Shown in pieces: positions 47,085 to 48,969 of a stretch of DNA of 64,000 bases. The DNA comes from Leptospiraceae bacterium (GTDB lineage: Bacteria > Spirochaetota > Leptospiria > Leptospirales > Leptonemataceae). Where the stretch lies: NCBI GenBank assembly GCA_025059995.1, contig JANXCF010000009.1, positions 1-64,000 of the forward strand, written 5' to 3'. Positions within the stretch are counted from its first letter, which is position 1, and each line of letters begins with the position of its first letter. The notes beneath the pieces are model-generated. The model did not search any database, had not been told where the DNA came from, and was given only the letters and a program-made list of their open reading frames with translations. Position numbers and translations under genes: made by a program.

Positions 47085-48251
47085 ATGAAAAATCAACTGA
47101 AAATGAGATTAAAAACTTTTTTTTTCACTACTTTAGCTGTGTTTAGCTTACATCCAATCGGAGCTTTTGAACCATCTATCAATGTGAGCATTCCAGTTGT
47201 ATCAACCTACATCTTTCGTGGAGTTGATGTTTTTCAAAATAAACATTTGATTGATAAGACATCTTATAGTAGTTTTAATTTGGCGCCTGCGATACAACCA
47301 AGTATTACCTTTAATTTTTCAGAAGGGTGGTATTTTAATATTTGGTCCTCGTTTGCCTTAGTGAATCGAAGCGATGCCGATGTGGACGAATTGTTACAAG
47401 AAGGTCCTGGTGACACTGGTACGATTGCACAAGCCTATGGAAGTTTTATTGCAAGTCTTTTAACTGATAATCCATTGCCAATTGGTATCATAACATCGAC
47501 AATTCAAAATACTGTTGATCAAAACGGCTTAGAAGCTTATCTTACTGGTTCAGCTAATTTTCCAAATTTTTATAAAGAACCCGTTGGACTCCATCGCGTT
47601 GACGAGGTTGACCTAACGTTAGGATACTCTTTTTCCACAAAGTTAGGAACTATGTCAGGAGGGATTGTAACATACTTACTACCTAACACTGCGGAGGGTG
47701 TGGTAGGTGGTGATCAATTTACGGAAATTTTTGTTGGATATTCTCCCTCTGGACTACCAAATTTGTCGATTTATTTATACGGAGAATTCAACGGTGATGG
47801 ATACGGTGGTTCTACTTTCACAACAATTAGTTACAAAATCCCTATTGTTGAAGGAGATGCTGCTACATTCACTTTTGAACCTGCAATTGCTTATCAAACC
47901 CAAAACGGATTACAAGGTATCAAATATATTAGCTTTCCTTTTAATCTTAGTGTAGGGAATTTTTTTGTAAGTCTTGTAGGTTATTATCGCTTCACTATCG
48001 AATTCTTTGATCCAGACCCCTACAAAAATGACTTGGTCTCTTTGATAGGACTTTCATCCAATACAGACGGAAAAATACAAGATCCTTCAAAGTTAGGAAA
48101 TGGGTTTAATATCGAAGGAACTATCATTTCTGATATTTATAATGATATTTATACTCAAGCAGGTATACCTCTTACATACACTTACACCCCATTACAAGAT
48201 ATACCAAGAATCATTTTTTACTTTGCAATCGGTTATAGTTTCAGCTTCTAA
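47085..48251 (+). CDS. TorF-like outer-membrane beta-barrel protein
   Basis: The 388-aa protein has an N-terminal signal peptide (about residues 1-28, ending '...LHPIGAFE'). Alternating-hydrophobicity strands follow and the last strand is aromatic, 'IIFYFAIGYSFSF', ending in Phe as outer-membrane barrels do. The start 'INVSIPVVSTYIFRGVDVFQ' matches the 'SxYxFRGxS' onset of TorF-family putative porins. GGAGG (47075-47079) lies 5 nt before the ATG. It is monocistronic with its own terminator. Substrate unknown. Confidence 0.75.
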   Translation: MKNQLKMRLKTFFFTTLAVFSLHPIGAFEPSINVSIPVVSTYIFRGVDVFQNKHLIDKTSYSSFNLAPAIQPSITFNFSEGWYFNIWSSFALVNRSDADVDELLQEGPGDTGTIAQAYGSFIASLLTDNPLPIGIITSTIQNTVDQNGLEAYLTGSANFPNFYKEPVGLHRVDEVDLTLGYSFSTKLGTMSGGIVTYLLPNTAEGVVGGDQFTEIFVGYSPSGLPNLSIYLYGEFNGDGYGGSTFTTISYKIPIVEGDAATFTFEPAIAYQTQNGLQGIKYISFPFNLSVGNFFVSLVGYYRFTIEFFDPDPYKNDLVSLIGLSSNTDGKIQDPSKLGNGFNIEGTIISDIYNDIYTQAGIPLTYTYTPLQDIPRIIFYFAIGYSFSF

Positions 48252-48264
48252 ACTCTCTCCTTTA

Positions 48265-48300
48265 GCCACCTAAACAAGGTGGCATTTTTTTATTTTTTTT
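48265..48300 (+). terminator. Rho-independent terminator after the outer-membrane protein gene
   Basis: GCCACCT-AAACA-AGGTGGC (7-bp stem, 5-nt loop) is followed by A and two T-runs (48285-48300). It lies 13 bp after the stop codon and overlaps the 3' end of the convergent small gene. Confidence 0.93.
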
Positions 48301-48544
48301 CATCATTAAGCCATTTTCGTATAATCATACTTGCCTGCTTGGGATTTTCTTTTACAACTTCTTTCGTATTGTTGATCATTTCTTGTTTTTCTTCGGAGGT
48401 AAGGTTGACTTTTATTTTTTCTTTTTTATAAGAAGTAGGCTTCTTTTTTGAGGGAGCTTCACTCGAAAGGGAAAAATACAAAATAACGAAACCAACAATC
48501 AAGAAAAAAGCAAATGCCAGTCCAAATAAGAGCTCGATGGACAT
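48290..48544 (-). CDS. Small membrane protein with a FliF C-terminal-tail motif, 84 aa
   Basis: One TM helix (residues 4-26), a basic linker (32-45) and a cytoplasmic helix that ends 'KENPKQASMIIRKWLND'. This matches the short C-terminal motif of flagellar MS-ring protein FliF (N-P-x-x-A/V-x-x-I-R-x-W-L/I-N), the part that binds the N-terminal domain of FliG. The rest of FliF is absent. The start ATG overlaps the nikR stop by one base (TAATG), so it is coupled to nikR. A FliG-binding role is inference from the motif. Confidence 0.7.
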   Translation of the reverse strand: MSIELLFGLAFAFFLIVGFVILYFSLSSEAPSKKKPTSYKKEKIKVNLTSEEKQEMINNTKEVVKENPKQASMIIRKWLNDEKK

Positions 48545-48969
48545 TAAATTTCAGGGGGTGCAATTCTCGTGAGTTCGGCAAACTTGACCCCACGAACACC
48601 AGATAACTCAATATTAATTTTTTGGATTTCCTTTGCTAATCCTTTCATCACGATGATTTCTAAACAATCATCTTCATTTACATGAATGTGTAAATTACAC
48701 AAGATATTGATTAAGTTTGTATGTTGTATGTGGATCATTTTTTCTGAAAGATCAGAAGTATGGTGATTATAAATGATTGATAAAACGCCAATCACGTTTT
48801 CTTCTGGGTTTTTCCATTTGTCTGCAACAATCTTTTCACGAATCAAATCCCGAATGAATTCTGACCGAGAAGCATATCCCTGGTCAATGAACTGCTGATC
48901 CATGATTTGAAGTAATTCCTCCGGCAAAGATATACTAAAACGCACATATTTATCACTTTTAGTTTCCAT
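48544..48969 (-). CDS. nikR: Nickel-responsive ribbon-helix-helix regulator NikR
   Basis: Ni(II)-dependent repressor. The 141-aa protein has an N-terminal ribbon-helix-helix 'RFSISLPEELLQIMDQQF' and 'YASRSEFIRDLIREK'. The ACT-like metal domain keeps all four square-planar nickel ligands by alignment with E. coli NikR (H76, H87, H89, C95): here H83, H94, H96 and C102, in 'IQH', 'LHIHVNEDDCLEIIVMKG'. No nickel transporter or urease/hydrogenase gene is adjacent. Coupled (TAATG) to the FliF-tail-like gene. Confidence 0.93.
   Translation of the reverse strand: METKSDKYVRFSISLPEELLQIMDQQFIDQGYASRSEFIRDLIREKIVADKWKNPEENVIGVLSIIYNHHTSDLSEKMIHIQHTNLINILCNLHIHVNEDDCLEIIVMKGLAKEIQKINIELSGVRGVKFAELTRIAPPEI

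Follow-up and report, generated by a model that had tools for sequence, protein, structure and literature searches.

A small membrane protein carrying a FliF-type tail

The window, by which we mean the whole stretch of 64,000 nucleotides analysed, comes from an uncultured spirochaete. It contains a small gene joined to the gene of a nickel-responsive regulator, and it raises the question of what a short membrane protein ending like the flagellar ring protein FliF could do without the rest of FliF, and whether nickel has any part in it. The ORF at 48290-48544 on the minus strand starts with ATG and encodes a protein of 84 aa, a membrane anchor, linker and FliF-type tail in succession; its identification draws on the ORF, on a family of 14 and on a whole-genome match. 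The structure model and hydropathy place a single transmembrane helix at residues 3-27 (48464-48538, minus strand), followed by a flexible Lys/Ser-rich linker at residues 28-49 (48398-48463, minus strand), which is helix-free in the model and of low pLDDT (59 for residues 31-40). The FliF-type tail occupies residues 50-84 (48293-48397, minus strand) and forms two helices, 50-66 and 68-83, for which Pro68 is the hinge; the core motif NPKQASMIIRKWLND is read from the sequence at residues 67-81 (48302-48346, minus strand). This helix-hinge-helix tail belongs to a model with a mean pLDDT of 83.6 and a pTM of 0.36. The ORF, the model, hydropathy and profile searches together bear out the earlier note, which had described an 84-aa protein combining one transmembrane helix with a short FliF-type motif.

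Fourteen stand-alone copies were aligned (profile A1), with lengths of 83-136 aa that depend on the start codons chosen in this analysis. All 14 share a single strongly hydrophobic stretch, a linker that varies between members, and a conserved end. Numbered as in the window protein, Arg76 and Trp78 of this end never vary and Pro68 hardly does. The net charge before the hydrophobic stretch is not positive and after it is positive in every member, and because basic residues follow the membrane helix, the C-terminus of the small protein should be cytoplasmic according to this sequence pattern. No Pfam or NCBIfam family matched the small protein at its cut-off. At E ≤ 10, neither YscJ_FliF nor YscJ_FliF_C gave a Pfam match, and FliO was absent from the 8 Pfam families listed. 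A Foldseek search with the model of the window protein did not recover FliF (best E 6.9), and PHROGs returned four weak matches for this protein (best 0.0058) and zero for two relatives. Taken as a whole, the 14 copies are a real, previously uncurated small family, in which a part of FliF is used without FliF.

Homology of the tail with FliF

To compare the tail with proteins of known structure, a 36-column profile of the 14 stand-alone tails (A3) was searched against 177,635 distinct PDB sequences. The best four matches were all FliF (E 5.1e-4, 3.6e-3, 7.2e-3 and 0.023), two of them through an identical matched segment; 8 distinct sequences matched at E ≤ 10, and those other than FliF were designed or hypothetical proteins with E ≥ 0.1, headed by a designed one at 0.1. 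The full-length family profile also matched FliF chains, at 1.3e-3 to 9.8e-3, while its top match was a designed coiled coil (4.2e-6) aligned via the hydrophobic/linker part. The T. maritima FliF peptide 5tdy reached E 0.2 with the full-length profile and was missing from the tail-profile matches.

A search of 61 related genomes returned stand-alone relatives together with FliF C-ends matching residues 40-84. In a six-frame scan of the 22 genomes of the window's family at E ≤ 0.05, the tail profile gave 34 matches, namely the 14 small proteins, which match by construction, and 20 FliF ends, which like the absence of any other tail bearer are independent of how the profile was built. One of these FliF ends belongs to a frame of 326 aa in a fragmented assembly, and two genomes, G010 (81% complete) and G021 (77%), showed no FliF match.

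In the reverse direction, an HMM was built from the tails of 17 FliFs outside the family, with 8 family FliFs set aside. It recognized all 14 small proteins at 18.1-34.6 bits, and the best of 14,000 shuffled sequences scored 12.8. Separation was weaker with a longer HMM of the FliF end that included the membrane helix: the small proteins scored 17.2-46.9 bits and the best shuffle reached 21.5, a mark that the window protein clears at 24.5 bits and that three of the 14 miss (21.3, 18.2 and 17.2 bits). Aligned by hhalign with the 17 outside-family FliF ends, the small-protein alignment gave a probability of 98% and an E of 7.6e-14 over 46 tail columns. By these sequence comparisons, the tail is a genuine FliF C-terminal end, and the resemblance goes beyond chance.

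Neighbouring genes and the proposed nickel link

Upstream of the small gene lies nikR, encoding the nickel-responsive regulator (48544-48969, minus strand), and the two share one base, the small-gene ATG overlapping the nikR stop as TAATG. The regulator gene is genuine (NikR_C 1.3e-24 in Pfam; PRK00630 1.3e-54 in NCBIfam). The overlap reported in the earlier note is therefore present in the window, and from it the note had drawn a link between metal state and motility. A nickel-regulated motility switch would accord with this overlap and with the position of nikR directly upstream of the small gene in 3 of the 4 genomes of the window's genus, but these three are the only such cases among the 14 carriers; in the other 11 nikR is absent and other neighbours take its place. 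NikR_C was detected in just 4 of 48 genomes of the class, all four from the window's genus, and one of these, G001, has nikR without the small gene beside it or elsewhere. Moreover, in the window nikR is itself preceded, at a distance of 46 bases, by ilvC in the same orientation, and a crude scan for inverted repeats with 7-base arms upstream of nikR revealed no common one, with none in three of the four genomes and A/T-rich repeats only in G001. We therefore regard the switch as very improbable and rejected the nickel link as a general feature; nikR looks like a genus-specific neighbour, incidental to the small protein.

Across the carriers, the neighbours of the small gene are nikR, a K+-transporter gene, gatC/gatA and an NTP transferase gene, with no flagellar operon among them. 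In 8 of 14 carriers the K+-transporter gene (Pfam K_trans 7.4e-14 in G008, and identified in the others by common sequence) lies 3' of the small gene and is read in the same direction, and in 9 of 14 gatC/gatA stand divergently upstream. In the window, a 388-aa ORF (47085-48251, plus strand) is convergent with the small gene and has a weak match to a Gcw_chp/TorF-like putative porin (2.4e-3, below cut-off).

Distribution, origin and selection

Stand-alone copies were found in 14 of the 22 genomes of the window's family, spread over 8 of its 13 genera, and in none of the remaining 26 of the 48 class genomes searched. The small gene is dispensable, since it is missing from 8 of the 22 family genomes, five of which are 91-94% complete. 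A phylum-wide scan of 392 genomes gave a FliF-type match at E ≤ 0.001 in 339, and among the matches listed stand-alone frames occurred only in the same 14 genomes; weaker matches fell outside that listing, and a genome beyond the family with no other match might still harbour a stand-alone copy. Six genomes from outside the family had two matches each, and on re-examination they yielded a protein joining FliG_N to a FliF-like tail in G205 and otherwise weak partial matches. Family f49, which we guess to be non-flagellated, had no FliF-type match in the phylum scan, and all five of its re-examined genomes were without a stand-alone copy at E ≤ 0.1.

The presence of the small gene was mapped onto a midpoint-rooted FliG tree of 20 family rows, which excludes six outgroup loci. 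At least 5 gain/loss changes were needed, against a mean of 6.6 for shuffled data, and 76 of 500 shuffles were as low. Presence is not clearly clustered on this tree, and one gain followed by several losses is only one reading of it. At the K+-transporter/gat locus of G005, G017, G019 and G006, no ORF of at least 30 aa matched profile A1, and a K+-transporter match was not found in G012 and G015. In G013, an ORF with a hydrophobic stretch (L132:4447-4803, plus strand) occupies the syntenic place before the K+-transporter gene; it matches profile A1 at E 0.0066, is divergent and lacks the R-x-W motif, and is a decayed or changed member of the family.

The most FliF-like member, from G011 (L044), aligns with FliF over the membrane helix, the charged juxtamembrane stretch and the tail with 46 bits, a score that charged low-complexity sequence may inflate. 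This reach beyond the tail points to an origin of the family in a copied 3' end of fliF. In genus g2 (five genomes, 10 pairs, 26 tail codons), pooled pS was 0.550 and pN 0.030, a ratio of 0.054. For the three pairs from the window's genus, 36 codons gave pN/pS values of 0.30, 0.47 and 0.31, the synonymous sites there being almost saturated. Judged by these ratios, the small gene is under purifying selection, which is weaker in the window's own genus.

FliG as the likely partner

The FliF tail is reported to co-fold with FliG_N (PMC6079021, PMC7355467), and a hinge is described in the FliF tail of structure 5TDY (PMC6079021). All 14 small-gene carriers have a FliG_N match and 12 of 14 have a FliF tail. 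Since FliG_N accompanies every carrier and the tail is confined, in the 22 family genomes, to FliF ends and small proteins, the likely partner of the small protein is FliG, as the earlier note had proposed for its anchor and FliF-type tail. Of the two genes whose co-conservation it had suggested checking, fliG accompanies all 14 carriers by its FliG_N match and nikR only 3. Homologues in non-flagellated bacteria, which it had named as evidence to the contrary, did not appear: every stand-alone copy seen comes from a genome that also has FliG_N.

We think it quite probable that the small protein binds FliG_N. On balance, we favour the view that it is a detached FliF membrane helix and tail that grips the N domain of FliG and ties FliG to the membrane without the ring part. 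One membrane helix would hold the protein with its C-terminus in the cytoplasm, and beyond the loose linker the two-helix tail would enter the N domain of a FliG in the same way as the FliF tail. FliG would then be kept at the membrane by a partner without the ring-building portion of FliF, and the outcome could be extra anchoring points for the C ring, the holding of a spare or second FliG, or the removal of FliG from FliF. Tentatively, and with rather less assurance than an even chance would give, we take the small protein to be an accessory FliG anchor or adaptor at or beside the motor; that it is purely an inhibitor seems unlikely.

Such an inhibitor would compete with FliF, removing FliG_N from it and so limiting C-ring assembly or motor number. 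The loss of all ring-building parts with retention of the contact tail (84 aa, no FliF Pfam domain) would fit this, and a gene outside flagellar operons would suit a regulator, yet no sign of lowered motility lends support and purifying selection fits either role; we consider competition an unlikely main function. The small protein might instead anchor a second FliG, for the window's genome encodes two, the other being a divergent protein of 367 aa encoded downstream of rsmH. Two carriers, G020 and G021 (78% and 77% complete), show this second FliG only, and in Borrelia FliG1 is reported to sit at one cell end (PMC7225975), but second FliGs are as common where the small protein is missing: 7 of the 8 non-carriers in the family also have at least two FliG loci. 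The second FliG does not track the small protein and was rejected as a tracking partner, and we hold it improbable that it, rather than the main FliG, is what the small protein anchors.

A more radical objection is that the gene is a product of chance or decay, either a membrane helix that happens to end in an amphipathic tail or a remnant of fliF on its way to being lost. The gene is indeed small and patchy, and the syntenic ORF of G013 lacks R-x-W, but the shuffle test, hhalign, the PDB search and the six-frame scan all contradict this explanation, as does the pN/pS of 0.054, and we give it hardly any credence.

A FliG_N-plus-tail protein in another genus

The protein met in G205 (L161:1498-1911, minus strand; relatives L165-L172) represents a type of about 137 aa from family f22, genus g72, presumably Treponema, in which a FliG_N-like part is joined to a FliF-like end. 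Its FliG_N-like part scored 9.5e-5 in Pfam with 23.4 bits, just under the cut-off of 25, and its structure was poorly predicted (mean pLDDT 53.9). Matches to it occurred in 24 of 59 genomes of the genus; eight loci were fetched and six of them read, five ending in basic-x-W and one in S-x-W. This protein unites the two sides of the FliF-FliG joint within a single short chain, which fits the proposed pairing of the small protein with FliG.

The joint between FliG_N and the FliF tail is considered to be what makes the MS and C rings agree in copy number (PMC7355467), and the C ring of Borrelia has been reported as 46-fold (PMC6663468). Spirochaetes may conceivably have freed this joint repeatedly as a separate part, as a membrane-tethered tail here and as FliG_N plus tail elsewhere, with the C-ring number then decoupled, though we rate this as doubtful. 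If true, such parts would allow the cell to retain or add FliG subunits without a FliF ring subunit to match, and the MS ring would no longer dictate the copy number of the C ring one-to-one. As a naturally occurring FliF tail that stands free and is anchored in the membrane, the small protein offers a handy tool and perhaps a natural exception to copy-number matching, and it makes the loading, holding or limiting of FliG at the membrane without FliF testable.

Comparison with known flagellar proteins

With FliF of the MS ring, the small protein shares the tail sequence, the Pro hinge, R-x-W, the preceding membrane helix and a putatively cytoplasmic C-terminus. It differs from FliF in lacking the periplasmic domains that build the ring and the first membrane helix (one helix, not two), in its shorter and variable linker, and in the position of its gene away from flagellar operons. 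FlgV (H. pylori; Borrelia BB0268) has two membrane helices, whereas the small protein has one according to the model, with a C-in charge pattern in 14/14; the FlgV gene lies in flagellar operons (flhG-fliA region), whereas the small gene has no flagellar neighbours. In the phylum scan, the genomes listed for g76 (family f38), 22 in number and by our guess Borrelia-like, gave one match each, and no second, FlgV-like tail was picked up in them.

Engineered FliF-FliG fusions also tie the FliF tail to FliG_N (PMC6079021, PMC7355467), but unlike the small protein they are laboratory constructs with whole FliF. A literature search by title and start of abstract, whose coverage mostly leaves aside subscription journals, found no description of a stand-alone FliF tail.

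The second FliG of spirochaetes (FliG1/FliG2) is likewise a spirochaete-specific addition to the rotor and a possible partner, but it is a FliG, whereas the small protein is a piece of FliF. In the window's genome, the gene of the second FliG (L055:9095-10198, plus strand) is on contig C1, away from the fliF contig, and directly downstream of an rsmH-like gene and a short FtsL-like ORF. The fliF and main fliG genes share a contig of the same genome (G000:C6; L056, L057), separated by about 19 kb, and in several other family genomes fliF and fliG are neighbours by their coordinates. G005, G011 and G017 contain three FliG_N-bearing loci each.
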